From Prauserella alba (GTDB lineage Bacteria; Actinomycetota; Actinomycetes; Mycobacteriales; Pseudonocardiaceae): a DNA stretch of 64,000 bases. Of the stretch, positions 8,033 through 33,916 are shown one piece after another; the first letter of the stretch is position 1, and each line of letters starts with the position of its first letter. The notes under the pieces were generated by a model, which did no database searches, was not told the DNA's origin, and worked only from the letters and a program-made list of their open reading frames with translations. Location: positions 744,001 through 808,000 of the forward strand of contig NZ_JAMTCH010000004.1 in assembly GCF_024171735.1 (NCBI RefSeq). Reading direction: 5' to 3'. The translations under genes and the position numbers were made by a program.

Positions 8033-9178
8033 ATGATTACGGACGGGTTCCTCTATCTCGGTGTGCTGCTGGGGCTGGCCGCGGTCATCGTCTACGTCAC
8101 CCAGCGCAGGCAGTACCGGTTCCTCAAGTACGTGCCCGGTTTCGTGCTGCTCTACCTCGGAGCGGCACTGCTGAACACGCTCGGCGTGTTCGGTGAGTCC
8201 GATTCGGTCGAGGCGACCGGCGACGCGGTGAAGGATGCGCTGCTGCCGGCGATGATCCTGCTGCTGTTGTTCAAATGCGACATCCGCAAGATCATCAAAC
8301 TCGGCCCGAAGCTCCTGCTGACGTTCGTGATCTCGGCGCTCAGCATCGCGGTGGGCTTCGTCGTCGCGTTCCTGATCTTCCAGGCGACCCTGGAGGGCGA
8401 GGCGTACAAGGCGCTCGGTGCACTCGCCGCGTCGTGGACCGGCGGCTCGGCCAACCTGGTCGCGGTGCAGTCCATCGTGGACGCACCGGAGACGCTGATC
8501 GGCTACGTGCTGATCGTCGACACGGTGCTCTACTCGCTGTGGCTGCTCGTGATGTTCAGCTCCGTCGGCGTCGCCGACCGGTTCAACCGGTGGACCAAGG
8601 CGAAGGCGATCAACTTCGACGGGCACGCGGCCGACGAGCGGGAACACTCGATAGACCTGACCTCACTGATGACACTGATCGGCTTCAGCCTGCTCGTGTC
8701 CGCGGCCGCGACCTGGGTCGGCGGCCTGCTGCCGGAACTGGGCGACGTCGTCACCGGAACCACGTGGACGATCCTCATCGTCAGCGTGCTCGGCCTGGTC
8801 ATCGCCTCCACCCGATTCGGCAGGACCGCGGGCTCGTCCGAACTCGCGATGGTGATGCTGTACGTGATCATCGGCATCATCGCCTCCGGCTCCGACTTCT
8901 CCTCGCTGGCCGAAGCGCCGCTGTACCTGCTGATGGGCGTGATCGCGTTGATGGCGCACGCGACCATCATGGTCGTCTACGCCAAGCTCACGAAGTCCGA
9001 GCTGTCGAGCCTGGCGGTGGCCAGCACGGCCAACCTCGGCGGCATGGCCTCGGCACCGGTCGTGGCCAGCGCGTTCCACCGGCAGATGGTGCCCGTGGGT
9101 GTGCTGTTCGCCCTGATCGGTGCGTTCTCGGGCACGTTCATCGGGCTGGCGACGGTGAACGTGCTGGGGGTGATCTGA
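8033..9178 (+). CDS. DUF819 family membrane protein (putative transporter)
   Basis: Predicted 381 residues, almost wholly hydrophobic with about ten or eleven membrane helices. DUF819 proteins (for example B. subtilis YjcL) have no proven substrate. The signature-like segments SWTGGSANLVAVQ (about 128-140) and STANLGGMASAPVVASAFH (about 332-350) are two similar motifs in the two halves, suggesting an inverted-repeat transporter fold. A purine-rich AGGAAGAAAGGACGG lies at 8004-8018 upstream of ATG 8033. It is followed after one base by the dipeptide epimerase gene and then a secreted NlpC/P60 peptidase gene. I therefore infer it imports murein-derived peptides. Confidence 0.85.
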   Translation: MITDGFLYLGVLLGLAAVIVYVTQRRQYRFLKYVPGFVLLYLGAALLNTLGVFGESDSVEATGDAVKDALLPAMILLLLFKCDIRKIIKLGPKLLLTFVISALSIAVGFVVAFLIFQATLEGEAYKALGALAASWTGGSANLVAVQSIVDAPETLIGYVLIVDTVLYSLWLLVMFSSVGVADRFNRWTKAKAINFDGHAADEREHSIDLTSLMTLIGFSLLVSAAATWVGGLLPELGDVVTGTTWTILIVSVLGLVIASTRFGRTAGSSELAMVMLYVIIGIIASGSDFSSLAEAPLYLLMGVIALMAHATIMVVYAKLTKSELSSLAVASTANLGGMASAPVVASAFHRQMVPVGVLFALIGAFSGTFIGLATVNVLGVI

Positions 9179-21443: not shown

Positions 21444-22784
21444 TCAGCCGTTCCGGGCGGACAGGAAACGCTGCCTGCCCTCCGCGAGGTCGGCGACCGG
21501 GTCCGGGTAGTCCAGCGCCCGGCGCTCGCACGAAGGGAGTCGCCACGGTTCATGCACCGCAGCCCCTGGAATGCCGCGCAACTCCGGGACGTACCGGCGC
21601 ACGTAATCGCCCGCCGGGTCGTACCGCATCGCCTGCCGGAGCGGGTTGAGCACACGATTCGGCCGGGTGTCGGCACCCGTACCCGCGACCCATTGCCAGT
21701 TCAGCTGGTTGTTGGCCACATCGGCGTCGACGAGGTGCCACTGGAAGTGCCGCGCTCCTTCCCGCCAGTCCACGTACAGGGTCTTGGTCAGGAAGCTCGC
21801 CGTGATCATGCGGGCACGGTTGTGCATCCAGCCTTCCCTGAGCAGCTGGCGCATCCCGGCGTCGACGATCGGATAGCCGGTGCGGCCCTCGCGCCACGCC
21901 GCCAGTTCCTCGGGCGCGTCCCGCCAGTCGTCGCCGCGGGGGCGGTAGTCCTGCCTCGCCGTCGCCGGCCGGGCGGCCAGCATCTGATGGTGGAAGTCCC
22001 GCCAGGCGAGCTGCCTGCCGAACTCCCACGCTCCCTGTGATCCTCCGCCCGCGCGGTGCAGCACTTCCACCGGCGAGAGGGTGCCGAAATGCAGGTGCGG
22101 AGAAAGCCGCGACGTGCGATCGCCCGCCAGGTCGTCACGCCCTTCGGCGTAGCCGGTCACGGCGTTGGCGGCCCATTCGGCCAACAATGCGCGGCCGGCT
22201 CGCTCCCCACCGTCGGCGAGCTCCGGAGCGCGGAGCCCGTCTCCCTGTGCGACGTCGCGCGGCTCCGCCGAATCGGCTTCCGGCGTCGTGATCCGGGGTG
22301 GCGGCGGCAGCGGTGTCCGTCTCGCCGCTGCCTGCCACCGCCGCAGATACGGAGTGAAGACGGCGAAGTGATCGCCTCCGCCGGTGGGTGTGATCTCACC
22401 GGGCGCCGCGGCGGTGGTGACCGTGTCGTGGACGTGTACGGCGACGCCGGGGATCTCCTCCAGCCGTTCCTGCCTGCGCTGGGCGTAGCCACTGACGTCC
22501 GCCGAGACATGCACGTCCGACACGTCGTTCTCGGCGATCAACCGGGAAACCGCCGTGACGGGGTCGCCCCGCCGGATGATCAGCGCCCCGCCGAGGTCCT
22601 GGAGCGCGGCGTCCAGGTCGGCAAGGCACCTGTGGAGAAACGCGGCGCGGTTCGGCGGGGCGGGAAGCCCCGGGTCGAGCACGAACAGCGGTACGACCCT
22701 GTCGGCACCGACCGCAGCCGCGTACAGCATCGGGTTGTCGTTGATCCGCAGATCTCGCGTGAACAGCGCGATCGAGGTCCGCAT
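21444..22784 (-). CDS. phr: deoxyribodipyrimidine photolyase
   Basis: Predicted 446 residues from ATG 22784. It repairs UV-induced cyclobutane pyrimidine dimers using FAD and blue light. The N-terminal photolyase domain begins ALFTRDLRINDNPML. The FAD and DNA-binding C-terminal half contains SRLSPHLHFGTLSP, WREGRTGYPIVDAGMRQL, EGWMHNRARMITASFL and NQLNWQWVAGTGADT, all hallmarks of class I CPD photolyases. It lies 20 bases after rskA and is probably the last gene of the sigK operon, so UV/light repair would be under SigK control. The open frame runs on to 23453 within rskA but is only an overlap artefact. Confidence 0.93.
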   Translation of the reverse strand: MRTSIALFTRDLRINDNPMLYAAAVGADRVVPLFVLDPGLPAPPNRAAFLHRCLADLDAALQDLGGALIIRRGDPVTAVSRLIAENDVSDVHVSADVSGYAQRRQERLEEIPGVAVHVHDTVTTAAAPGEITPTGGGDHFAVFTPYLRRWQAAARRTPLPPPPRITTPEADSAEPRDVAQGDGLRAPELADGGERAGRALLAEWAANAVTGYAEGRDDLAGDRTSRLSPHLHFGTLSPVEVLHRAGGGSQGAWEFGRQLAWRDFHHQMLAARPATARQDYRPRGDDWRDAPEELAAWREGRTGYPIVDAGMRQLLREGWMHNRARMITASFLTKTLYVDWREGARHFQWHLVDADVANNQLNWQWVAGTGADTRPNRVLNPLRQAMRYDPAGDYVRRYVPELRGIPGAAVHEPWRLPSCERRALDYPDPVADLAEGRQRFLSARNG

Positions 22785-22804: not shown

Positions 22805-23554
22805 TCAGGCGCGCAGGGACAGCAACATGAACGGGTCGGTGGTCGGCTGTTGCGACCCTCCCGCCGGTTCGGTCGTCACGCCGAGCTTCGTGGTGTCGCC
22901 GGGCATGTCCGCCGTGACCGGTACGTCGCCGCCGGTGAGTACCCCCATCGAGGTGGCTCCCTGCTCGTTGATGGCCCAGAGCTGGTGCACCTTGTCCTCC
23001 GGTGCGGCCGGCATGTGTTCGCTCATGAACACGACCTTGCCGAGTTCGGCCGAGACGATCGCGGTCGCCACGGCACCTCCCTCGGAGGCATGCATGATCC
23101 TGGCGTCCGGGGCGTGCAGCAGGCGGGCCATCTCGGCTCCCCGCTCGCCCGCCTGCTCGATCCGCTGCTGTGCCTGGTCGAGTTCCTGCTGTGACTGCCA
23201 TGCGGCGACACCGAACACGGCGGCCAGACCGATCCCGACGACCGAGGCGGCAACGGCGAGGCGCGTGGCCAACCGGGACGTCGCTCGCGCCTTCCGTGTC
23301 CCGATCGGCACCGGTTGAGCCGTCGGCGGCTCCTGCCGGGTGTGTGCGATCTCGTGCAGTACACGGCCCTTGAGCTCGGCGGGCGGTTCCTCGGCGGCGG
23401 CGACGCCGAGCATACCCGCCGCTTCCCGCAGCTCCCGCACTTCCTGCGCGCACTCACCGCATTCGGCGAGGTGATGCTCGAACTCGGCGCGTTCCGGTCC
23501 CGTGAGCGCGTCCACCGCGTAGGCGCCGGTGAGACCTGCCATCTCGTTGCTCAT
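22805..23554 (-). CDS. rskA: anti-sigma-K factor RskA
   Basis: Predicted 249 residues. The cytoplasmic N-terminal anti-sigma domain (about 1-75) has AVDALTGPERAEFEHHLAEC with the His and Cys residues of the zinc anti-sigma type (HHLAECGEC). One membrane helix (LAVAASVVGIGLAAVFGVAA) lies near 95-115, then an external coiled segment and an RskA C-terminal domain (DKVHQLWAINEQGA, MGVLTGGD). It holds SigK inactive until cut by membrane proteolysis in the mycobacterial system. Its ATG shares the A of the sigK stop codon (TGATG), so the two are translationally coupled. Confidence 0.93.
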   Translation of the reverse strand: MSNEMAGLTGAYAVDALTGPERAEFEHHLAECGECAQEVRELREAAGMLGVAAAEEPPAELKGRVLHEIAHTRQEPPTAQPVPIGTRKARATSRLATRLAVAASVVGIGLAAVFGVAAWQSQQELDQAQQRIEQAGERGAEMARLLHAPDARIMHASEGGAVATAIVSAELGKVVFMSEHMPAAPEDKVHQLWAINEQGATSMGVLTGGDVPVTADMPGDTTKLGVTTEPAGGSQQPTTDPFMLLSLRA

Positions 23555-24156
23555 CAGCCCACCCCCAGGCAATCGCGCAGGCGGATCAGCCCGTCCCGCA
23601 GGCGGGTCTTCACCGTGGCCGTCGGCGAGCCCACCAACTCGGCCGCCTCTCGGTAGGTGTAACCGCGGTAATAGGTCAGCAGCACCGATTCCCGCTGCAG
23701 TTCGGTCAATGTGGACATACACCGGCGCACCTGGCGCTGTTCCAGGCGACCGAGCACGGACTCACTGACCTCGTCGAACGCGCGGGCTCCTGAGCGGGAA
23801 CCCACCTTGGCCTCACGGTCGGCCGCGGACTGCTCGGCCCGCACCCGGTCCACCGCGCGCCGGTGCGCGAGGGTCAGTACCCAGGTCATGGCGCCGCCCT
23901 TCTCGGGCCGATAGTGCGTCGCGGTGCGCCACACCTCGACGAGCACCTCCTGGGTGACCTCTTCGGACTGCGCGGCGTCCCGGAGCAAGCGGCGCACGAG
24001 CCCGAAGACAGGCCTGACGATCAACTCGTAGAGCTGTTCGAAGGCTGCTTCATTCCCCTTGGCGACCTCCACCAACAGGGCACGCGCGTCCGGAGCGGGC
24101 TGCGGCTGCCCAGCCCATCCCAGCGGCGGCTCGGCAGACTGCGGACCGTCATCCAC
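23554..24156 (-). CDS. sigK: ECF RNA polymerase sigma factor SigK
   Basis: Predicted 200 residues from GTG 24156 (spacing 9 from GGGAG); a TTG at 24165 is the alternative. Region 2 shows AAFEQLYELIVRPVFGLVRR and SEEVTQEVLVEVWRTATHY; region 4 shows TELQRESVLLTYYRGYTYREA followed by VKTRLRDGLIRLRD, the helix-turn-helix for the -35 element. Followed by rskA with a one-base overlap. The gene order amine oxidase, DUF1365, CFA methyltransferase, sigK, rskA matches the M. tuberculosis Rv0449c-Rv0444c block as I recall it, with photolyase in place of later genes. Confidence 0.94.
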   Translation of the reverse strand: MDDGPQSAEPPLGWAGQPQPAPDARALLVEVAKGNEAAFEQLYELIVRPVFGLVRRLLRDAAQSEEVTQEVLVEVWRTATHYRPEKGGAMTWVLTLAHRRAVDRVRAEQSAADREAKVGSRSGARAFDEVSESVLGRLEQRQVRRCMSTLTELQRESVLLTYYRGYTYREAAELVGSPTATVKTRLRDGLIRLRDCLGVG

Positions 24157-24206
24157 ACCAATCAACTCCCTCCCCTGCGACGCCTACCGCGCCGCCCCGA
24201 CATTCT

Positions 24207-25490
24207 TCAGCGACGAGCGGTTTTGTGCAGACCGAACTGCCAGACGTCGAGATAGCCGGAGCGGAATCCCGCTTCGCTGTATGCCAGGTAGAACTCCCAC
24301 ACCCGCGGCAGTGTTCGGCCCAGACCGAGCTCGGCGACGGCGGAGTGTCGCTCGGCCAGTCGCTCCCGCCAGCGCCGCAGTGTTTCCGCGTAGCCGGGTC
24401 CGAAGCCGCGCCGTTCGGCCAGCGCCATACCGGTGTTGACCTCGACGTTGCGTTCCACGACGCGTACCGACGGGAGCAGCCCGCCGGGAAAGACGTACTT
24501 GTGGATCCAGGTGTACGAGTCGCGGGTGGCCAGCAGCCGGTCGTGCGGCATCGTTATGGCCTGGATACTCGCCCGGCCGCCGTCCACCAGGAGTCGGTCC
24601 AGTGTTGCGAAGTAGGACGGCCAGTACTCCCAGCCGACCGCCTCGATCATCTCGATGCTGACCACCGCGTCGTAGCGGCCCTCGACCTCCCGGTAGTCGC
24701 GGAGCTGCACGTCGACCACGTCGTCCAACCCGGCGGCCCGTACCCGCTCGACGGCTAGTCTCCGCTGCTGCTCGGACAACGTGACGGTCGTGACGGAGGC
24801 GCCGCGTCGCGCGGCACGTATCGCCAATGATCCCCACCCAGTGCCGATCTCCAGCATCCGCGTTCCCGACCGCACTCCGGCCAGGTCGAGCATCGAGTCC
24901 AGTTTGGATAGTTGCGCGGCCTCGAGATCGTCGCCCGGCCTCAACGGCGCGCCCGAGTAGGTCATCGTCTCGTCGAGAAAAGCGGCGAAGAACTCGTTGG
25001 ACAGGTCGTAATGCCGGTGAATGTTGCGACGTGCGCCCGACGTGGTGTTACGTTCCGACCCCGGCTGGGTGGCGTCGACCCAACGGCGCAGGACCTGTAG
25101 CGGCGCCGGGACCAGGCTGGGCAGCTGCGCCGCGAATCGGGTCAGCAGTTCCGCGAGGTCGGGACTCGACCAGTCACCGGCCAGATAGGCCTCCCCGAAA
25201 CCGATCTTGCCGTCCGCTCCGAGCCGGTGGAAGAAGTCCCCCGGCCGCTCGATCCGCATCAGGGGCGCCTCGGGGCCACCGGCGCCGAGGCGTTCCCCGC
25301 CCGCGACCGCGACGCGCACCGGCAGCCGGCGGACCGCGTGCCGGAAGAGCCTGCCGGCCGCCGCGGCACGCAACGGCGAGTGTGGTGCGCCGGGGACGTC
25401 CTGCCCTGGCAATGGCGGTCCAGCGGCGATCGCGTTGGCGGACGCCTCGTGGAATCCGGCGTGGTGCAGGCCGGCGTCGGTGGTACTCAT
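24207..25490 (-). CDS. cyclopropane-fatty-acid-synthase-type SAM methyltransferase (UfaA1-like)
   Basis: Predicted 427 residues. AGGAG lies just before ATG 25490, which overlaps the DUF1365 stop by four bases. The N-terminal third is the mainly lipid-binding region of CFA synthases (PGDFFHRLGADGKIGFGEAY). The SAM-binding loop is LEIGTGWGSLAIRAA, followed by VTTVTLSEQQ, EMIEAVGWEYW and GGRASIQAITM. It transfers a methyl or methylene group to unsaturated phospholipid acyl chains. Position between DUF1365 and sigK equals that of ufaA1 in mycobacteria. In Rhodobacter related genes belong to the singlet-oxygen response; the product here is unknown (cyclopropane, methyl-branched or furan-type). Confidence 0.92.
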   Translation of the reverse strand: MSTTDAGLHHAGFHEASANAIAAGPPLPGQDVPGAPHSPLRAAAAGRLFRHAVRRLPVRVAVAGGERLGAGGPEAPLMRIERPGDFFHRLGADGKIGFGEAYLAGDWSSPDLAELLTRFAAQLPSLVPAPLQVLRRWVDATQPGSERNTTSGARRNIHRHYDLSNEFFAAFLDETMTYSGAPLRPGDDLEAAQLSKLDSMLDLAGVRSGTRMLEIGTGWGSLAIRAARRGASVTTVTLSEQQRRLAVERVRAAGLDDVVDVQLRDYREVEGRYDAVVSIEMIEAVGWEYWPSYFATLDRLLVDGGRASIQAITMPHDRLLATRDSYTWIHKYVFPGGLLPSVRVVERNVEVNTGMALAERRGFGPGYAETLRRWRERLAERHSAVAELGLGRTLPRVWEFYLAYSEAGFRSGYLDVWQFGLHKTARR

Positions 25491-26200
25491 CGATTCTCCT
25501 GACGGCGCGGGGTGATCGGAACTCTCCGCAGCCACAGCGCAACGCCGTGACGGCGGATCGAGGCGGAAACCCGTTGTGGCACGAACGGCCTGCGCAGCAG
25601 CATGCGCACGAGTGCACGGTTGGTCGCGGGCTCGCGGGTACCGGTCATGGTGGCGCTGAGCAGCTGCTTCCCGTCGTCGCCGAGCTGGACCCGAACGGCC
25701 AGCCGCTCGGCCGGTCGCGGCAACCGCATGCGGTATCGGCCGTGACCGGGCAGGAACGGCGACACGTAGAGCTGTTTGTCCGCTTCGGCTCGGCCGTCCG
25801 GGTCCGGCGACAGCAGATAGCGATGCTGCTGCCCGTACGTGTTGTGCACTTCCGCGACGACGCAGGCCTGCCGACCGTCGCGAAAATGGCACCAGTAGAC
25901 GGTGATCGGGTTGAACACGTACCCCAGTACGCGGGCGTGTGCCAGCATCAGTATCCGGCCGCCGTCCAGCCGCACGCCGCGAGCGGCGAGCCACCGATCG
26001 AGATTGCGGCGGATGGGCTCGTCTTTCGCCCCGAGGTGGTCACGCGCGTCGAAGCCGGCGAAGGGACGCAACCACCACGGCAGTCGAGGCAGCCGGTCCA
26101 GGTCGACGAGCCAGGTGTAGAGGTGGTTGCGGAAGGACCGGGCGAGGCCGACGTGGCGGGTGTGTGTCACCACGACGTCGTAGAGCGCGGGCGCGGTCAC
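25487..26200 (-). CDS. DUF1365 domain protein
   Basis: Predicted 237 residues, GTG start overlapping the amine-oxidase stop by four bases (GTGA). DUF1365 signatures are plain: HTRHVGLARSFRNHLYTWLVDLD, the central VLGYVFNPITVYWCHFRDG, and VHNTYGQQHRYLL, then DKQLYVSPFLP. No membrane segment is obvious. The family is almost always next to a flavin amine oxidase and a CFA-type methyltransferase, implying one step of the same acyl-chain modification, possibly substrate handling. The biochemical role is not established. Third from the end of the sigK operon upstream part. Confidence 0.92.
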   Translation of the reverse strand: MTAPALYDVVVTHTRHVGLARSFRNHLYTWLVDLDRLPRLPWWLRPFAGFDARDHLGAKDEPIRRNLDRWLAARGVRLDGGRILMLAHARVLGYVFNPITVYWCHFRDGRQACVVAEVHNTYGQQHRYLLSPDPDGRAEADKQLYVSPFLPGHGRYRMRLPRPAERLAVRVQLGDDGKQLLSATMTGTREPATNRALVRMLLRRPFVPQRVSASIRRHGVALWLRRVPITPRRQENR

Positions 26201-27468
26201 CGCGACCCCCAGCCCGCACCGAGGTTCTCGGCGACCCGCACCCCGGAGGCACAGCCGTCCTCGTGGAACCCCCAGCCGTGGTACGCACCCGCGAAACTGA
26301 CCCGATCGTCGGCGAGCTCGTGCAGTCTGCGCTGCGCAGCGACAGATTCAGGGGTATAAATCGGGTGTCGGTAAGTGGGTGCGGCGATCACCTTCCGCGG
26401 ATCGACCCGACCGACATCACCGAGGGTGACGATGTAGTCCTCGGGCTCGGCCAGCCGCATCAGCCTGTTCATGTCGTAGCTGACCCGGACCTCGTCCGTC
26501 CCCGCTGCGCATGCAGGCTTCCAGTAGTTCCACGACGCCCGTGCGCGCCGACCCGCCGGGACGAGCCGGGCATCGGTGTGCAGCACGGCCTCGTTCCGTG
26601 AATACGTGAAGGCGCCGAGGATCTCGCGCTCGGCAGCGGTCGGCGCTGCCAACATGTGAAGCGCATCGTCGGCGTGAGTGGCGACCACCGCGTGGTCGGC
26701 CACGTGCACCGTATCGTCGTCGCCACGGATCTCGACCCCCTCCGGACGGCGCAGCACGGAACGGACCGGGGCGGACACGCGCACCACGTGAAGCTGTTTG
26801 CCGATGCGATCGACATAACTCCGGGAACCACCGACGACGGTGCGCCAGGCGGGCGATCCACCGACCGACAGCATGCCGTGGTTGCGCAGGAACTCGAACA
26901 GGTAGCGAGCCGGATACCGCAGACTGATCTCCGGTCCGGCCGACCACACCGCCGACACCAGCGGAACCGCGAAGTGGTCGACGAAGAACTGTGAGTAGCG
27001 GCCGTCGGCGAGGAATGCGCCGAGTGTCGAGTGGTCGTCCGTTCCCACGTCGAGCAGCTCGTTGGCACTACGGTGGAATCGGCGCACCTGCGCGAGCAGG
27101 CGCAGATACGCCGGCCGGGCAAGACTCGCCGGCTCGGCGAACAGACCGGTCAGGCCCTTCGCACCGGCATACGTCAAGCCACATTCCGCACAGCGGACGC
27201 TCATGGACATCTCGGTGTCCTGCGTAGCCACACCGAGTTCGTCGAACAGGCGCATCAGGTTGGGGTAGGTGCGCTCGTTGTGCACGATGAACCCGCTGTC
27301 CACTGCGATCGCCCTGCCGTCGGACGTGACGACGTCGTGAGTATGGGCGTGCCCTCCGAGCCGGTCGTCGGCGTCGAAGAGCGTCACCCGGTAGCGTCGG
27401 CTCAGCAGATACGCTGCGGTCAGCCCGGATACTCCGGCACCGATCACAGCCACCGTGGGTTCGGTCAT
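26197..27468 (-). CDS. FAD-dependent amine-oxidase-family oxidoreductase
   Basis: Predicted 423 residues; ATG 27468 has AGGAGG with spacing about 6. The dinucleotide-binding motif is VAVIGAGVSGLTAAYLL (residues 6-22), followed by FDADDRLGGHAHT, and a C-terminal flavin motif VSFAGAYHGWGFHEDG. Long relatives act as fatty-acyl or carotenoid desaturases; this lineage (Rv0449c type) sits with DUF1365 and CFA methyltransferase genes and is thought to desaturate a methylated acyl chain in Rhodobacter furan-fatty-acid synthesis. First gene of the presumed six-gene sigK operon, with a candidate SigK promoter about 140 bases upstream. Confidence 0.92.
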   Translation of the reverse strand: MTEPTVAVIGAGVSGLTAAYLLSRRYRVTLFDADDRLGGHAHTHDVVTSDGRAIAVDSGFIVHNERTYPNLMRLFDELGVATQDTEMSMSVRCAECGLTYAGAKGLTGLFAEPASLARPAYLRLLAQVRRFHRSANELLDVGTDDHSTLGAFLADGRYSQFFVDHFAVPLVSAVWSAGPEISLRYPARYLFEFLRNHGMLSVGGSPAWRTVVGGSRSYVDRIGKQLHVVRVSAPVRSVLRRPEGVEIRGDDDTVHVADHAVVATHADDALHMLAAPTAAEREILGAFTYSRNEAVLHTDARLVPAGRRARASWNYWKPACAAGTDEVRVSYDMNRLMRLAEPEDYIVTLGDVGRVDPRKVIAAPTYRHPIYTPESVAAQRRLHELADDRVSFAGAYHGWGFHEDGCASGVRVAENLGAGWGSR

Positions 27469-27874
27469 GCCCCCTCCTGTTCATCGGCCCGGCCGGTCAC
27501 CGACCGCGCACCCGGCCCGCGTGGACGCGCCGAACCGGTGACTCCCGCCGCGACGCCGTTGCACGCCGAACACCTGGCCGCAGGTTCCGCGATTCGCATA
27601 CCCGCTATTCGGATCCGGTTGCCGAAACGATTGCCCATGTGATGGCAGACACACGCGCGTGTGTGGGCGAGCGCGCACGCAATCGGCTCCGAATGCGCGG
27701 TATGCGCACCGGGAAGGCAACGGGACGGGGACGGGGACTTGCACGCGCATGCGTGCCCGGTGACCTCGACGTTCGGCGACCTCACCGACGAGCTCCGGCG
27801 CAGCCGAGGCCTGGCGAACGCACACCGGGCGCGGCCGCAACCGCAGGCATGACCGGGATTCGAGGGGAGCGCGG
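27469..27874. other. 406-base divergent region between the amine-oxidase and DUF1295 genes
   Basis: It holds the candidate SigK promoter for the minus-strand operon (27607-27634) and a second CCGAAT word on the plus strand (27689-27694) without a matching -35. It is somewhat richer in alternating purine-pyrimidine runs such as CACACGCGCGTGTG (27651-27664), which could form an unusual helix. No gene was recognised. Confidence 0.6.
27607..27634 (-). promoter_or_regulatory. candidate SigK promoter for the amine-oxidase/sigK operon
   Basis: On the minus strand GCAATC (27634-27629), 16 bases, then CCGAAT (27612-27607). The -10-like word CCGAAT equals the one I recall for mycobacterial SigK promoters. 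The predicted start would leave a leader of roughly 130 bases. Confidence 0.55.
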
Positions 27875-28654
27875 ATGAGCCTTCCTGCCGCCGCGGCACT
27901 CGCGCTCGGTGTTGCGTTGCTCGTCGTCGTGATCACGTTCGGTGTCGCACGGTTGCGGGGCCGCTACGACACGATCGACACCGCATGGGGTGCCGGGTTC
28001 GCCACGATCGCGGCAGTCGGCTTCGCCGCAGAACCGAACGGGTCGGGCGGTGCGCTGCTGGCGACCGCCCTGGTCATCGTGTGGGGTATTCGACTGTCGG
28101 TGCACCTCCACCTGCGCAATGCCAGGCAGGGCGAGGATCACCGCTACCGGGCGATGTCGGCCAGGGCCACGTCGCGTCCGGCGGTTCGGATGTTCGTCCG
28201 CACCTACCTGGCCCAGGCGGGGGTGATGTGGTTCGTCTCGCTCCCCGTGGTCCTTGCCCAGCAGCGACCGAGCGAGATGGGTGTTCTCGGCGTCGCCGGC
28301 GTGCTGGTGTGGTGCGTCGGATTCACCTTCGAGGCGATCGGCGACGAGCAGCTGCGCCGGTTCGCCGCGGATCCGGCGAACGCGGGCCGCGTGCTCGACC
28401 GGGGGCTGTGGCGTTACACCCGGCATCCCAATTACTTCGGTGACGCCTGCGTGTGGTGGGGGCTGTACCTGATCGCCGCCCAGCAGCTATCAGGTGCCGC
28501 TACGGTGCTCTCCCCGATACTCATGACCTGGTTGCTCGCCCGCGGCACCGGAAAGCCGCTGACGGAACGCCGGCTGCGGGAAACGCGGCCCGGCTACGCC
28601 GACTACGTCGCGCGGACAAGCGGCTTCCTGCCGATGCCGCCCAAGAACCACTGA
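27875..28654 (+). CDS. DUF1295 membrane protein (steroid 5-alpha-reductase-like fold)
   Basis: Predicted 259 residues with six or seven membrane helices. ATG 27875 has GAGGGGAG seven bases upstream. The conserved C-terminal signature is RGLWRYTRHPNYFGDACVWWG (about 180-200) with later ETRPGYADYVARTSGFLP, the NADPH-binding and active region of DUF1295/isoprenylcysteine-methyltransferase-like proteins. A homologue (Rv0446c) lies in the mycobacterial sigK block between ufaA1 and sigK; here it is on the opposite strand, facing the operon. Likely acts on the same lipid as the amine oxidase, DUF1365 and CFA proteins. Confidence 0.9.
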   Translation: MSLPAAAALALGVALLVVVITFGVARLRGRYDTIDTAWGAGFATIAAVGFAAEPNGSGGALLATALVIVWGIRLSVHLHLRNARQGEDHRYRAMSARATSRPAVRMFVRTYLAQAGVMWFVSLPVVLAQQRPSEMGVLGVAGVLVWCVGFTFEAIGDEQLRRFAADPANAGRVLDRGLWRYTRHPNYFGDACVWWGLYLIAAQQLSGAATVLSPILMTWLLARGTGKPLTERRLRETRPGYADYVARTSGFLPMPPKNH

Positions 28655-28661
28655 CCCGCGA

Positions 28662-28689
28662 CCAAGCGGAGGCCTCGGCGGCGCCGAAT
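28662..28689 (+). promoter_or_regulatory. candidate SigK promoter for the Mo-oxidoreductase gene
   Basis: CCAAGC (28662-28667), 16 bases, CCGAAT (28684-28689). Seven bases further lies ATG 28697, so the transcript would begin at or next to the start codon (leaderless). Confidence 0.6.
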
Positions 28690-28696
28690 CATCGAT

Positions 28697-30310
28697 ATGT
28701 CAACTCCAGCGGCCGCTCCTGCCCCCGGTGCGCTCCGTGCGATGTTCGCGAGTTTCGCCTCTGTGGCGTTCGCCCTCGGCGCCGGGCACCTGGCGTCGGG
28801 ATTCACCTCGCCGAACGCGTCGCCGTACCTCGCCGTCGGCAACACCGCGATCGACTTCACTCCGGAACCGGTGAAACAGTTCGCCATCCGGCAGTTCGGC
28901 GAGTCGGACAAGCTCGTCCTGCTCGGCGGCATGGGGTTGGTGATCCTGCTGCTCGCGGTGATCGCCGGACTGCTCTCGCGGCGCACCGCCACACCCGGTC
29001 TCGTGATCATCGGAGCGTTCGGCGTGATCGGGGTGATCGCGGCGTTGTTCCGCCGCGACCTCGCCGTCCCCGACGCCCTTCCGGCCGCGGTGGCGCTGGT
29101 GTCCGGCCTCGGAGTGTTCGGGTGGCTCCACCGGCTCGCGTCGCGCCCCGCGACCGCACACCGCCCCGACGGCAACACGGTCACGGCAGGCGACGCCGGT
29201 TCCGGCGAGACCGGAGGGGATGACACCGCGACAGCGGCCACGTCGTCGACCGCCTCGCGGCGCACCTTCGTGCTCGCCGCCGCCGGGGTCACGGTTGTCG
29301 CAGGCGGAGCCGCGGCCGGCGGGCGGCTTCTCACGAACCGGTCCGGAGTGGACGCGGCCCGCACCGAGGTCGGACGGATCGTTCCGGCCAATCCGCCGGT
29401 TCCGCGCGGGGCGGACTTCGCTTCCCAAGGAACGCCGTCGTTCATCACCCCCAACAAGGACTTCTACCGCGTCGACACCGCACTGTCCGTGCCGAGGATC
29501 CGACTGGACGATTGGCGGCTGCGCATCCACGGGATGGTCGACAAGGAGTTGACGCTCGGTTTCGACGACTTGATCACCCGGAGGGTCGAGCAGCGGACGG
29601 TCACGATGACCTGCGTGTCCAATCAGGTCGGTGGCGACTACGTCTCGACCGCGACCTTCACCGGCGTCCCGATCAGGGACCTGCTCGACGAGGTCGGCGT
29701 CCGGAGCGGCGCCGAGCAGGTGTTCAGCACCAGCGTGGACGGCTACACCGCAGGAACCCCGCTGGACGTGCTGCGCGAGGCCGACCGCGGCGCCCTCCTC
29801 GCCTACGGCATGAACGGCGAAGCGCTACCCGCCGAACACGGCTTCCCGGTACGCATGGTCACGCCTGGCCTCTACGGCTACCTGTCGGCGACGAAATGGC
29901 TAGCCGACATGGAACTGACGACCTTCGACAAGCAGACCTACTGGGAGGAGCGCGGCTGGGCCGAACGTGCGCCGATCAAGACGCAGTCCCGGATCGACCG
30001 TCCTCAGCCCTTCCAGAAGTTCCCCGCCGGCAAGTTCACCGTCGCCGGTGTCGCATGGGCACAGCCGACCGGCATCGAACGGGTCGAGGTGCGCGTGGAC
30101 GGCGGCCCGTGGCAGCAGGCCGACCTCGCCACGGAGGTCAACGAACAGACCTGGCGAATGTGGCGGGCCGAGATCGAATTCCCTCCGGGCGGCCACGACA
30201 TCGAGTGCCGAGCGACCGACAAATCCGGCTACACCCAACAGGCTCGCCGTGTCCCGCCGGTCCCGGACGGCGCCACGGGATGGCACTCCATCTTCTGCAC
30301 CGCCACGTAG
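28697..30310 (+). CDS. membrane-anchored molybdopterin-dependent oxidoreductase (sulfite-oxidase family)
   Basis: Predicted 537 residues. Three or four membrane helices fill 10-150 (FASFASVAFALGAGHLASG, LVLLGGMGLVILLLAVIAGL, and others), followed by a Ser/Thr-rich hinge and another helix after SRRTFVLAAAGVTVVAGGAA (a twin-Arg-like pair). The extracellular molybdopterin domain has the metal cysteine C306 in TMTCVSNQVGGDY. The C-terminal 110 residues are the Ig-like sulfite-oxidase dimer domain (VRVDGGPWQQADLA, WHSIFCTAT). Substrate unknown. A SigK-like promoter immediately precedes the start, and an MPT83-like fasciclin gene follows, which supports joint regulation. Confidence 0.9.
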   Translation: MSTPAAAPAPGALRAMFASFASVAFALGAGHLASGFTSPNASPYLAVGNTAIDFTPEPVKQFAIRQFGESDKLVLLGGMGLVILLLAVIAGLLSRRTATPGLVIIGAFGVIGVIAALFRRDLAVPDALPAAVALVSGLGVFGWLHRLASRPATAHRPDGNTVTAGDAGSGETGGDDTATAATSSTASRRTFVLAAAGVTVVAGGAAAGGRLLTNRSGVDAARTEVGRIVPANPPVPRGADFASQGTPSFITPNKDFYRVDTALSVPRIRLDDWRLRIHGMVDKELTLGFDDLITRRVEQRTVTMTCVSNQVGGDYVSTATFTGVPIRDLLDEVGVRSGAEQVFSTSVDGYTAGTPLDVLREADRGALLAYGMNGEALPAEHGFPVRMVTPGLYGYLSATKWLADMELTTFDKQTYWEERGWAERAPIKTQSRIDRPQPFQKFPAGKFTVAGVAWAQPTGIERVEVRVDGGPWQQADLATEVNEQTWRMWRAEIEFPPGGHDIECRATDKSGYTQQARRVPPVPDGATGWHSIFCTAT

Positions 30311-30340
30311 CCCGCGTTTCCGAGATTTCCACTTCGGACA

Positions 30341-30368
30341 CCAATCGATGCGGCCCACGGTGCCGAAT
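30341..30368 (+). promoter_or_regulatory. candidate SigK promoter for the fasciclin lipoprotein gene
   Basis: CCAATC (30341-30346), 16 bases, CCGAAT (30363-30368); predicted start near 30375, 42 bases before ATG 30417. M. tuberculosis mpt70/mpt83, the orthologous-type targets, are the best-known SigK-dependent genes. Confidence 0.6.
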
Positions 30369-30416
30369 GCCTGAAAGAACCCGAACTACGTAGACAGAAC
30401 GAGGAGTTGATTCCGG

Positions 30417-31112
30417 ATGAGGACCATTCGTCGGCATGCCGCGGTAACGGGTGCGGTCGCCGCACTCGCACTCGGGCTGAGCGCATGCGGTGGCGGCGAC
30501 ACCGCTGCCGAGGGTAACCAGGGCGATCAGGGCGGTGGTCAGGACCAGGCATCGTCGTCGGCTCCGCCGAGCTCGTCGGGTAACGGAGGCATGAACGACG
30601 GCATGACCACTGCCGACGACGTCTTCGGACCCGGCTGTTCACAGGTGCCCACGGACCCGAACAACGAGGGTTCCGTACAGGGCATGGTCGACGACCCGGT
30701 CGGTACCGCGGCCAGCAACAACCCGCTGCTGAAGAAGCTCACCGCCGCGGTGAAATCCGCCGGACTGGTCGACACGCTGAACAAGCAGGACGCAAACTAC
30801 ACCGTGTTCGCGCCCGCTGACCCCGCGTTCGACGAGATCCCGGCCGATCAGCTCGACGCGCTGCTCAACGACCCGGAGATGAAGGAAGATCTGACCAAGA
30901 CACTGACTTTCCACGTCGTGCCGGAGCGCATGGACGCGGCGGGCCTCGTCGACGCAGGATCGGTGGAGACCGTCCAGGGTGGCGAAGTGGAGATCGGCGG
31001 CAGCGCCGACGCTCCGACGGTCAACGGGGCGAAGGTGCTGTGCGGCAACGTGCCGACGGCCAACGCGACCGTCTTCGTCATCGACAAGGTCCTGCAGCCC
31101 GGCAAACAGTGA
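30417..31112 (+). CDS. fasciclin-domain surface lipoprotein, MPT83/MPT70-like
   Basis: Predicted 231 residues, GAGGAG 10 bases before ATG 30417. The lipobox is LGLSAC (C24), followed by a Gly/Ser/Gln-rich stalk to about residue 68. The remaining part aligns by eye with MPT70/MPT83: GPGCSQVP, then SVQGMVDDPVGTAASNNPLL, LVDTLNKQDANYTVFAPADPAF, LTFHVVP, and NVPTANATVFVIDKVL. Two cysteines (GPGC and VLCGN) correspond to the MPT70 disulfide pair. Fasciclin domains mediate adhesion or protein binding at the surface. Placed in the SigK locus here, unlike in M. tuberculosis where it is distant. Confidence 0.94.
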   Translation: MRTIRRHAAVTGAVAALALGLSACGGGDTAAEGNQGDQGGGQDQASSSAPPSSSGNGGMNDGMTTADDVFGPGCSQVPTDPNNEGSVQGMVDDPVGTAASNNPLLKKLTAAVKSAGLVDTLNKQDANYTVFAPADPAFDEIPADQLDALLNDPEMKEDLTKTLTFHVVPERMDAAGLVDAGSVETVQGGEVEIGGSADAPTVNGAKVLCGNVPTANATVFVIDKVLQPGKQ

Positions 31113-31249: not shown

Positions 31250-31753
31250 TCACTCGTCGTCCTCCAGCAATCGCGTTCGGACGGTCGTGGTCGCCCGAAT
31301 GCTGACCGTGAGGAATCGGACGATGGTGTCGCGCTCCGCGGCATCGAACGACGACCACACCGTCCCCAGCTCTGCTCCGAGCGGCCGGAACAGTTCTTCA
31401 CCGAGCCGCAGTGTCGCCTCCGGAAGCCGGAGTTCCGTTCGCCGTCCGTCGCTGGCGCTCCGGCAACGTTCGACGTGCCCGGCGTTCGCCAAGCGGTCGA
31501 GTACCGCCGTGGTGGCCGAAGGGCTCAGCTGCAGCGCCTGGGCCAGTTCCCCCGGCGAGATCGCATCGTCGCGGTGCATCGCATCCATGATCACGACAAG
31601 CGCGTTGAGGTCGGTTCGATACAAGCCGTGCGCCTCACCGAACATCTCCGCGAACCGGTCGGTCTCCACGTTCAGTTGCCGCAACAGGCGAATCAGCACG
31701 GCGTCCGAATCGTCGGGGTTCGGTCGGCCAAGTGCGACTTCCTCCCCTGCCAT
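31250..31753 (-). CDS. MarR family transcriptional regulator
   Basis: Predicted 167 residues; ATG 31753 with AAGGAGG twelve bases upstream. The winged helix spans about 55-125: HGLYRTDLNALVVIMDAMH, AISPGELAQALQLSPSATTAVLDRL, then wing ERCRSASDGRRTELRLPEA. Divergent from an MmpL-type exporter with an 87-base gap that contains a TAGTTTGA-3-TCGAAATA dyad. It most likely represses both genes and releases on binding a phenolic or lipid-like ligand, as usual for the family. Confidence 0.92.
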   Translation of the reverse strand: MAGEEVALGRPNPDDSDAVLIRLLRQLNVETDRFAEMFGEAHGLYRTDLNALVVIMDAMHRDDAISPGELAQALQLSPSATTAVLDRLANAGHVERCRSASDGRRTELRLPEATLRLGEELFRPLGAELGTVWSSFDAAERDTIVRFLTVSIRATTTVRTRLLEDDE

Positions 31754-31793
31754 GCACTACCACCTCCTTGCTGCCGGTACCGCTCCTCGCATG

Positions 31794-31812
31794 TAGTTTG
31801 ACAATCGAAATA
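31794..31812. promoter_or_regulatory. MarR-type operator in the divergent promoter region
   Basis: TAGTTTGA (31794-31801), CAA, TCGAAATA (31805-31812): an imperfect 8-3-8 dyad (six of eight positions match). It is AT-rich relative to the surroundings and lies 29 bases before the exporter start. Confidence 0.6.
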
Positions 31813-31840
31813 CTTTGGGCGAGGTGACCGGAGCGTGAGG

Positions 31841-33916
31841 ATGAACCCTACTGGCACGGCACGTCGACGTGGTGTCCTGCGGTGGCTGCTTCCGGCTCTG
31901 CTGATCGTCGGCTGGCTCGTCGTGGGCGGCGTGGGCGGGCCGTTCGCGGGCAAGCTCAGCGAGGTCGCCGAGAACGACAACTCCGCTTTCCTGCCCGAGA
32001 CGGCCGAGTCGACCAATGTGGCCGAACTCGAGCGCATGTTCACCGACGACGAGTTCGTGCCCGCCATCGTCGTCGCCGAACGAACCGCCGATGTGACGGC
32101 GGCCGACCGACGGTTCCTCGCGGAGAAGTCGGCGCAGCTGGCCGAGGTCCCCGGTGTGCCGGGTGAACTGCCGCCGCCCATGCCCTCGGACGACGGCCGG
32201 GCGCTGCAACTCGTGGTACCGATCGCCGCCGGCACCGCTCCCGACACGGCCGTCGAGGAGATCCGCGAGACCTTGGCCTCCGACCGACCCGGCGGCCTGA
32301 CGGTGCTCGTCACGGGGCCCGCGGCCTTCGGTGCCGACCTGGGCGAGGCGTTCGGCGGCATCGACGGGCTCCTGCTACTCGTCGCAGGCTCGGTCGTCGC
32401 GGTCATCCTGGTCCTCGTCTACCGCAGCCCGCTCCTTCCGGTCCTGGTGCTGCTGTCGGGCGTGTTCGCGCTCGGACTGGCGAGTCTGGTCGTCTACCTG
32501 CTCACCGACCAGGGGGTCATCGACCTCAACGGGCAGAGCCAGGGCATTCTGTTCATCCTGGTGTTCGGCGCTGCGACCGACTACGCACTACTGCTGGTGT
32601 CGCGCTACCGGGAGCAGTTGCGGGACTCCGACGACAGACTCTCGGCCATGGCTGCCGCGTGGAAGGCGACCATCGAGCCGATCGCGGCATCGGCGGGCAC
32701 CGTGATCCTCGGTGTGCTCTGTCTGCTCTTCAGTGATCTCCGTTCCAACCAGGGCCTCGGTCCGGTGGCCGCGATCGGCATCGGCTCCGCGCTGGTCGCG
32801 GCGACGACGTTCCTCCCGGCCGTGCTCGCCGTGTTCGGCCGAGCCGCGTTCTGGCCGTACCGGCCGAAGCTTGGCTCACCACATCCCGAGGAGAGCGGCG
32901 TCTGGCGGCGGATCGCGACCCGCGTCGGCTCGTCACCGAGGCTGATCTGGGTGGGCACCACCGTGGTGCTGCTCGTGGGCGCGGCGTTCCTCCCACAGCT
33001 GCGCGCTTCCGGCACCGCCGAGTCCGACATCTTCCTCAGCGAGGTGGACTCGGTCGCCGGTCAGGAGGTCCTGAGCGAACACTTCGTCGCCGGTTCCGGG
33101 AGTCCCGCGACGATCATCACCGACGCGGGCCGAGTCGACGACGTAGCGGCCGCGGCGCAGGTCGACGGCGTTGCCGAGGTGTCGGTCACGACCGGCCCGA
33201 ACGGTGAGCCCCGGACCGAGAACGGATTGGCCCGCATCGAGGCGGTCCTCTCCGATCCGGCCGACTCGGAATCGGCCGTCGCCACCGTGGAACGGCTGCG
33301 CGACGCCGTGCACGCGGTGCCGGCCGCCGACGCGAAGGTCGGCGGCCGCACCGCGACCCTGCTCGACACGCAGGACATCTCGGAGCGAGATCGCAATCTG
33401 ATCGTTCCCATCGTGCTCGTGGTGATCTTCGCGGTGCTCGCGCTACTGCTGCGCTCATTGCTGGCGCCGCTGCTGTTGATCGCGACGGTCGTGCTGTCGT
33501 TCGCCGCGACCATGGGCGTTTCCGCTCTCGTGTTCAACCACGTGCTGGACTTCCCCGGCGCCGATCCCGTCGTGCCGCTGTTCGGGTTCGTCTTCCTCGT
33601 CGCGCTCGGTATCGACTACAACATCTTCCTCATGACCAGGGTTCGCGAGGAGACGATCCGGCAGGGAACCCGGGCCGGCGTGCTGCGCGGCCTGACGGTC
33701 ACCGGTGGCGTCATCACCTCGGCGGGGGTCGTCCTCGCCGCGACGTTCGCGGCACTGGCCGTGCTGCCGATCCTGTTCCTCGCGCAGATCGCGTTCATCG
33801 TCGCGTTCGGGGTGCTGCTCGACACGTTGATCGTGCGGTCCCTCCTCGTGCCGGCTCTGGCCATCGACATCGGCAGGCACATCTGGTGGCCGTCGCGACT
33901 ACGGGAACGCGGCTGA
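31841..33916 (+). CDS. MmpL-family RND transporter
   Basis: Predicted 691 residues from ATG 31841 (GGAG seven bases upstream; GTG 31835 is the alternative). The MMPL architecture is duplicated: one helix, a large extracellular loop (AENDNSAFLPETAESTNVAEL), then a five-helix block with GVIDLNGQSQGILFILVFGAATDYALLLVSRYRE; the second half repeats this with DFPGADPVVPLFGFVFLVALGIDYNIFLMTRVRE. The paired TDYALLLVSR and IDYNIFLMTR segments carry the proton-relay Asp-Tyr dyads of MmpL3. It exports a hydrophobic substrate, unknown here. Controlled by the divergent MarR gene. Confidence 0.93.
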   Translation: MNPTGTARRRGVLRWLLPALLIVGWLVVGGVGGPFAGKLSEVAENDNSAFLPETAESTNVAELERMFTDDEFVPAIVVAERTADVTAADRRFLAEKSAQLAEVPGVPGELPPPMPSDDGRALQLVVPIAAGTAPDTAVEEIRETLASDRPGGLTVLVTGPAAFGADLGEAFGGIDGLLLLVAGSVVAVILVLVYRSPLLPVLVLLSGVFALGLASLVVYLLTDQGVIDLNGQSQGILFILVFGAATDYALLLVSRYREQLRDSDDRLSAMAAAWKATIEPIAASAGTVILGVLCLLFSDLRSNQGLGPVAAIGIGSALVAATTFLPAVLAVFGRAAFWPYRPKLGSPHPEESGVWRRIATRVGSSPRLIWVGTTVVLLVGAAFLPQLRASGTAESDIFLSEVDSVAGQEVLSEHFVAGSGSPATIITDAGRVDDVAAAAQVDGVAEVSVTTGPNGEPRTENGLARIEAVLSDPADSESAVATVERLRDAVHAVPAADAKVGGRTATLLDTQDISERDRNLIVPIVLVVIFAVLALLLRSLLAPLLLIATVVLSFAATMGVSALVFNHVLDFPGADPVVPLFGFVFLVALGIDYNIFLMTRVREETIRQGTRAGVLRGLTVTGGVITSAGVVLAATFAALAVLPILFLAQIAFIVAFGVLLDTLIVRSLLVPALAIDIGRHIWWPSRLRERG

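Follow-up and report, generated by a model that had tools for sequence, protein, structure and literature searches.

The 64,000-nucleotide stretch of the Prauserella alba genome analysed here (the window) encodes the sigma factor SigK, and a two-word motif, CAANC-N16-CCGAAT, stands ahead of a minus-strand operon that includes sigK, of a molybdenum (Mo) oxidoreductase gene and of a gene for a fasciclin-domain lipoprotein. Together with a weaker fourth copy, these three sites are very probably promoters read by RNA polymerase with SigK. We read them in this way because of the spacer spectrum of the motif, the density of sites according to the presence of SigK, and the joint presence or loss of SigK and the plus-strand target genes within the genus. 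The sites, with their predicted 5' ends, are:

27607..27633, minus strand: CAATC-N16-CCGAAT, putative SigK-type promoter ahead of the minus-strand operon; the transcript is predicted to start near 27599
28663..28689, plus strand: CAAGC-N16-CCGAAT, putative SigK-type promoter ahead of the Mo-oxidoreductase gene; the transcript is predicted to start with the ATG at 28697 (ATG offset 7)
30342..30368, plus strand: CAATC-N16-CCGAAT, putative SigK-type promoter ahead of the fasciclin-lipoprotein gene; the transcript is predicted to start near 30376
27668..27694, plus strand: weaker, probable fourth SigK-type site CGAGC-N16-CCGAAT, facing a DUF1295 gene, with an ATG at +7

A fixed-spacing motif at the sigK locus

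A sequence-only reading had placed the pattern at three start sites. All three stand, being the only exact matches in the window, and the set was probably incomplete, the site at 27668-27694 (+) being its likely fourth and weaker member; this site aligns with CGATC-N16-CCGAAT, also followed by an ATG at +7, in Prauserella salsuginis (L009). One hundred dinucleotide shuffles of the window gave a mean of 0.03 matches and a maximum of 1, which agrees with the earlier judgement that three matched sites would hardly arise by chance. CCGAAT alone was found 32 times (shuffle mean 22.8, standard deviation 5.0), more often than the 15-20 random occurrences estimated beforehand; the word is only mildly frequent, and the signal therefore lies in the pairing of the two words and their spacing.

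Scanning the 5.6-Mb genome with a spacer of 16 or 17 returned seven matches, three of them in the window, and none for the reversed control pattern. Of the four matches elsewhere, judged from mechanical lists of open reading frames and not from gene calls, three (L001, L002, L007) fall within or antisense to long reading frames, and the fourth (L006), at the head of an unassigned 121-codon frame, is a weak candidate. These four look accidental or lack an assigned gene, so we dropped the idea of a larger regulon in this genome. They are also what speaks for chance matches in GC-rich intergenic DNA combined with selective reading. For the motif set, that explanation is ruled out by the shuffles and by a spacer spectrum confined to N16, together with conservation across genera, and we give it virtually no weight.

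The logo of 33 distinct sites reads (C)CAATC(C/G)...G-N2-CCGAAT, and 30 of 33 have a G at the third base ahead of the -10 word; the sites were picked by their core words, so only the non-core letters are informative.

Conservation and co-occurrence with SigK

To follow the motif across genomes we used 110 loci (1.77 Mb), made up of 78 named loci retrieved through their Mo enzyme, 31 SigK neighbourhoods and the window itself. L146 and L147 were removed from this set as duplicates and L179 was unused, and no sampled 60-mer was common to any SigK neighbourhood and a named locus. With the exact words and a 16-base spacer we counted 40 matches, 34 of which lie shortly before homologs of genes found at the locus, whereas the other 25 spacers (5 to 30) gave 36 matches altogether, 0-4 each. 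Two of the six N16 matches without an assigned gene are operon promoters as well (L008, L151), their first gene falling outside the rule used. A conserved site of fixed spacing thus precedes the sigK operon and the fasciclin gene in other genomes, and the recurrence of the motif at corresponding genes of several genera bears out the earlier tie to SigK.

Allowing up to two mismatches with the spacer fixed at 16, a site was present at 26 of 75 Mo-enzyme, 22 of 37 fasciclin and 16 of 47 sigK starts, and at 7/11 FAD (flavin adenine dinucleotide) oxidase, 2/9 DUF1365, 2/13 CMAS and 1/10 rskA starts; on random stretches this rule found a site in 110 of 4400, true sites included. A position weight matrix, trained on 33 of the sites it was scored on, scored above the 99% level of random sequence ahead of 24 of 74 Mo-oxidoreductase, 21 of 37 fasciclin and 16 of 47 sigK genes, and of 6 of 11 FAD-oxidase genes versus 0 of 10 rskA genes.

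The density of sites follows the sigma factor. Among Pseudonocardiaceae, 20 SigK-positive genomes (best E below 1e-60; two of them just 74% and 86% complete) held 108 sites in 127.8 Mb, or 0.85 per Mb, compared with 38 sites in 117.2 Mb, or 0.32 per Mb, in 16 SigK-negative genomes (best E no stronger than 2.3e-33); a Mann-Whitney test gives p=0.0014. With the reversed control the two groups were equal (14 vs 13). FAS1, the fasciclin domain, was found in 16/20 SigK-positive vs 7/16 SigK-negative genomes (p=0.028). DUF1365 gave 13/20 vs 6/16, which is not significant (p=0.096), and strict co-occurrence of DUF1365 with SigK was dropped; where one Pseudonocardiaceae genome carries both, they lie within about 5 kb of each other in 11 of 13 cases.

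Within the genus, where Prauserella isguenensis, with a Mo enzyme 87% identical over the best segment, and P. salsuginis (81%) rank as the nearest named relatives, all four SigK-positive genomes carry a linked Mo enzyme (70-100% identity) and a fasciclin gene (76-100%). All three SigK-negative genomes are without a fasciclin domain, and their Mo enzyme is absent or only a 51-56% paralog. The SigK-linked Mo-oxidoreductase genes have the site in four of four cases with 0-1 mismatches, and four examined paralogs of the five found in the genus have none. The minus-operon site is kept in L008/L146 and L009/L147 and has one mismatch in L149.

The sigma factor itself passes the NCBIfam model NF007228 (SigK) with 264.7 bits against a cut-off of 226, and its best solved relative is 4nqw, SigK of Mycobacterium tuberculosis, whose redox cysteines are residues 133/183 as described in PMC7509140. 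Both redox cysteines are present in 30 of 33 relatives examined, and the gene is encoded together with an RskA-type anti-sigma factor. L172, L173 and L178 encode SigK relatives of 45-50% identity in which neither redox cysteine is present. As to the -10 word that the sequence-only reading had ascribed to mycobacterial SigK, our literature search found no paper pairing CCGAAT with SigK among those it covered.

A different ECF (extracytoplasmic function) sigma factor of similar preference might read these promoters, the nearby SigK being incidental. Such factors exist, since the genome holds at least 14 matches to the SigK query, but just one is close (7.6e-131) and the next own-genome match among those listed is 2.9e-13. 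Nor would this account explain why site density tracks SigK presence, or why fasciclin genes unlinked to sigK retain the site in three SigK-positive genomes (G013, G015, G026), 315-362 bases before the FAS1 domain as compared with 361 in the window. We consider it improbable.

Predicted transcripts and start-codon offsets

Domain searches confirmed the gene families that had been named at the outset, namely a Mo oxidoreductase, an MPT83-like fasciclin protein and minus-strand lipid-modification genes with sigK. The genes and short reading frames of the locus are (Ufa names are taken up in the next section):

21444..22784, minus strand: gene for a DNA photolyase, the next one downstream after rskA; above cut-off in Pfam for FAD_binding_7 as well as DNA_photolyase
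22805..23554, minus strand: rskA, membrane anti-sigma-K factor, ATG overlapping the sigK stop; Pfam RskA_C
23554..24165, minus strand: sigK, ECF sigma factor gene that starts with TTG; residues Cys149 and Cys199 of its product are aligned with cysteines of 4nqw
24207..25427, minus strand: CMAS/CFA-type S-adenosylmethionine (SAM) methyltransferase, with an uncertain start codon and UfaM-type at the family level only; Pfam CMAS, 5e-79
25487..26200, minus strand: DUF1365 protein, UfaO-type by family only; Pfam DUF1365, 4.9e-66
26197..27468, minus strand: FAD oxidase, desaturase-like, UfaD-type by family only; Pfam Amino_oxidase, solved relative LkcE
27465..27599, minus strand: candidate leaderless 44-codon reading frame, starting 7 nucleotides past the -10 word, its stop overlapping the FAD-oxidase ATG (ATGA)
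27702..27878, plus strand: 58-codon reading frame, starting 7 nucleotides past the -10 word of the fourth site, its stop overlapping the DUF1295 ATG
27875..28654, plus strand: DUF1295 membrane protein, divergent from the minus operon
28697..30310, plus strand: sulfite-oxidase-fold (SUOX-fold) molybdopterin oxidoreductase; N-terminal membrane part and internal twin-arginine motif, both read by eye from the sequence
30417..31112, plus strand: fasciclin-domain lipoprotein, MPT70/MPT83-like; 1nyo (MPT70) match 2.4e-31, lipobox read by eye

The rskA product scores 87.1 bits for RskA_C (cut-off 29.4) and 26.9 bits for RskA_N, slightly below the cut-off of 27. The photolyase product scores below cut-off in the NCBIfam photolyase models, and the gene occupies the same position in L147 and L149.

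In the mechanism we propose, SigK, encoded 3-6 kb from the sites, would be held by membrane-bound RskA until release. Once free, it would transcribe the minus operon by read-through from the short leaderless reading frame across the FAD oxidase, DUF1365, CMAS, sigK and rskA genes and probably the photolyase; by transcribing its own operon it would close a positive feedback loop. It would also yield a leaderless Mo-oxidoreductase mRNA, with its first base at or next to the ATG, and a fasciclin mRNA whose leader would span some 40 bases, the fasciclin ATG lying 48 bases past the -10 word.

The distance from the -10 word to the start codon sets the Mo enzyme apart. The first in-frame start follows exactly seven nucleotides on (+7) in 17 of 26 Mo-oxidoreductase sites, among them sites from Prauserella, Streptomyces, Kribbella, Aeromicrobium and Nocardioides; this is so at one of 22 fasciclin sites and at none of 16 sigK sites. 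In the window, 28697 is the first ATG, GTG or TTG past the upstream in-frame stop, so a working promoter would place the first base of the Mo-enzyme mRNA on the ATG or right beside it. The fixed offset suggests that this mRNA is leaderless. As far as our literature searches reach (Veyrier 2008 lay outside them), two features are new: the short reading frame at the operon, and a Mo enzyme that recurs among SigK-type targets with its start fixed at +7.

Several points weigh against the promoter assignment or the leaderless reading. Only 5 of 13 exact-word Mo-oxidoreductase sites have the +7 start; the eight without it all come from Paeniglutamicibacter, Arthrobacter or a Micrococcaceae metagenome-assembled genome and have offsets of 5, 13, 55 and 57, and 12 of the 17 +7 sites carry one or two mismatches. 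Upstream of 48 of 74 Mo-oxidoreductase genes there is no match near the 99% level, and the fourth site has a poor -35 word. Forward matches outnumber the reversed control in SigK-negative genomes (38 vs 13), so some matches are background. Because many loci are related, with 11 pairs sharing at least 400 60-mers, counts over loci are not independent. The missing +7 starts, and a short reading frame without clear third-position excess of changes, would also fit real promoters whose transcripts start further downstream, leaving the Mo-enzyme mRNA and the short frame leadered. The concentration of offset 7 at the Mo enzyme and the position of 28697 argue against such downstream starts, which we regard as unlikely, though a good deal less so than a different sigma factor.

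We searched the order (298 genomes) for sites with an ATG 3-11 nucleotides on and obtained 33, of which 13 (three in Prauserella) lie at offset 7. The 12 offset-7 loci fetched open two Mo oxidoreductases, two AhpC/TSA peroxiredoxins, three copies of the short Prauserella frame, four frames of just 8-35 codons and one long unassigned frame. Given what these loci open, part of the matches are chance, and we rejected them as a clean regulon list. The peroxiredoxin sites (L198 and L199, from one genus) place the start of an AhpC/TSA peroxiredoxin at the +7 ATG of a SigK-type site, L198 being confirmed by Pfam; an extension of the SigK regulon to peroxide removal is possible. In another family of the order, L208 has CAATC-N16-CCGAAT eight nucleotides before the ATG of a plastocyanin/azurin-family lipoprotein.

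The short reading frame before the FAD oxidase has 44, 45, 45 and 44 codons in four genomes, with the same stop/ATG overlap in all. Its frame and ends are kept and its codons are not, so we dropped a coding function and claim none for its product; the frame may instead let ribosomes enter here, with translation coupled onward to the minus operon. At other loci the +7 start opens a longer gene: a GTG opens the FAD oxidase itself in L158, and an ATG opens a 224-codon alpha/beta hydrolase in L151. The 58-codon frame at the fourth site is not conserved in L009, where it has 41 codons and ends before DUF1295.

The operon varies among relatives. In L146 (G033, which shares its record with P. isguenensis L008), at about 8568-8951, the FAD oxidase, DUF1365 and CMAS genes are mostly gone, a natural deletion between the SigK-type promoter and sigK that retains the promoter, sigK and rskA. 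The FAD-oxidase match in L149 (5758-7020) falls in four segments, maybe a frame disruption or a sequencing problem. A second CMAS-like gene, 32-35% identical to the window's, stands beside DUF1295 and adjoins the FAD-oxidase operon in L149, L150, L151, L153, L156 and L165.

Known regulons and a possible photo-oxidative signal

We take the mycobacterial gene Rv0449c to be the counterpart of the window's FAD oxidase. Autoregulation through the Rv0449c promoter has been described for mycobacterial SigK (PMC7509140), which also cites the mpt83-sigK-rskA cassette (Charlet 2005, Said-Salim 2006, Veyrier 2008) and reports conservation of the SigK site outside mycobacteria. The locus resembles the mycobacterial SigK-RskA regulon as described there in its orthologous sigma and anti-sigma factors, its fasciclin target and its predicted autoregulation. 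It differs in its host, a member of the Pseudonocardiaceae and not Mycobacterium, in the divergent DUF1295 gene, in the photolyase behind rskA, and in a SUOX-fold Mo enzyme whose gene is preceded by a separate SigK-type promoter at a fixed distance from the start codon. By its N-terminal membrane domain, internal twin-arginine motif and C-terminal molybdenum cofactor (MoCo) domain, this enzyme resembles the Sec/Tat dual-inserted MoCo membrane proteins of the Sco3746 type, in the features that PMC5449189 describes and with the motif read by eye; the heme-binding histidines described for that type (transmembrane domains, TMD2-4) were not found by eye.

Mycobacterial SigK controls the antigens MPT70 and MPT83, yet the stimuli of SigK-RskA are called obscure (PMC9861118). 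A single Prauserella locus assembles the sigma factor, its anti-sigma factor, three enzymes of furan-fatty-acid families, a photolyase, a fasciclin protein, a Mo enzyme and readable promoters, and because the whole set lies together the signal becomes testable without any pathogen. Under one sigma factor, moreover, some targets may be expressed from leaderless mRNA while others have a leader.

A second parallel is with the RpoE-ChrR (ECF11) regulon of Rhodobacter sphaeroides. Furan fatty acids are made there by UfaM (a SAM methyltransferase), UfaD (FAD, RSP_1091) and UfaO (DUF1365, RSP_1090) (PMC7380195), and Table 1 of PMC7074977 lists RSP_1090, RSP_1091, cfaS, the photolyase phrA, the fasciclin gene RSP_1409 and rpoE-chrR in the RpoE regulon, 13 of whose 15 genes are induced by singlet oxygen. 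The furan-fatty-acid genes are described as core regulon and required for ChrR turnover (review PMC6852236). The window matches these targets in its sigma/anti-sigma pair and in its CFA-type methyltransferase, UfaD-type, UfaO-type, photolyase and beta-Ig-H3/fasciclin families, the enzymes being likened to the Rhodobacter Ufa proteins at the level of family. The two systems differ in that the sigma and anti-sigma factors are of distinct types, and the rows of the RpoE table covered here hold no Mo enzyme (PMC7074977).

These shared families suggest that the SigK signal is photo-oxidative. ChrR-type anti-sigma factors carry a cupin domain; in the window's RskA, Pfam finds only RskA_C, zf-HC2 and a weak RskA_N. 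Tentatively, and by analogy, SigK-RskA may be the actinobacterial counterpart of RpoE-ChrR: singlet oxygen, or the lipid peroxides arising from it, would be the signal, furan fatty acids would scavenge it and feed back on RskA, and the fasciclin lipoprotein with the leaderless-mRNA SUOX-fold Mo enzyme would form an envelope arm, possibly for methionine-sulfoxide repair. If true, a photo-oxidative signal would explain the mild light induction, 6- and 3-fold, of the MPT83 and MPT70 homologs of Mycobacterium kansasii (PMC9861118) and the singlet-oxygen response of Rhodobacter capsulatus rpoE, whose RpoE and ChrR are nearer to M. tuberculosis SigK and RskA (34%, 25%; PMC7074977). In the table of that paper, singlet oxygen induces the R. 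capsulatus genes for both.

Some observations weigh against this signal. R. capsulatus is described as lacking homologs of RSP_1090, RSP_1091 and RSP_1409 (PMC7074977), the light effect in M. kansasii is small and dipZ was not induced (PMC9861118), and M. tuberculosis SigK is reportedly released by reduction and not by oxidation (PMC7509140). In our own data the DUF1365-SigK tie fell short of significance, the enzyme roles are assigned by family only, and a photolyase appears in just four distinct relatives (L009/L147, L149, L029, L036) of 111 loci searched, with none found in L146. A Xanthobacter comparator gave no DUF1365 match.

As far as our searches reach, the singlet-oxygen regulon parallel is new for actinobacteria. 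Among the matches listed, no paper proposes a link between SigK and singlet oxygen in actinobacteria, though Dufour 2008 and Veyrier 2008 lay outside the search and absence from print is not shown; only PMC7074977 among the matches listed for SigK with singlet oxygen concerns bacteria, and no furan term occurs among those listed for furan with SigK.

Beside the fasciclin gene, at 31250-33916 of the window, a MarR-type regulator gene is divergent from an MMPL transporter gene; the light-induced loci of M. kansasii include a MarR regulator and MmpL genes (PMC9861118).

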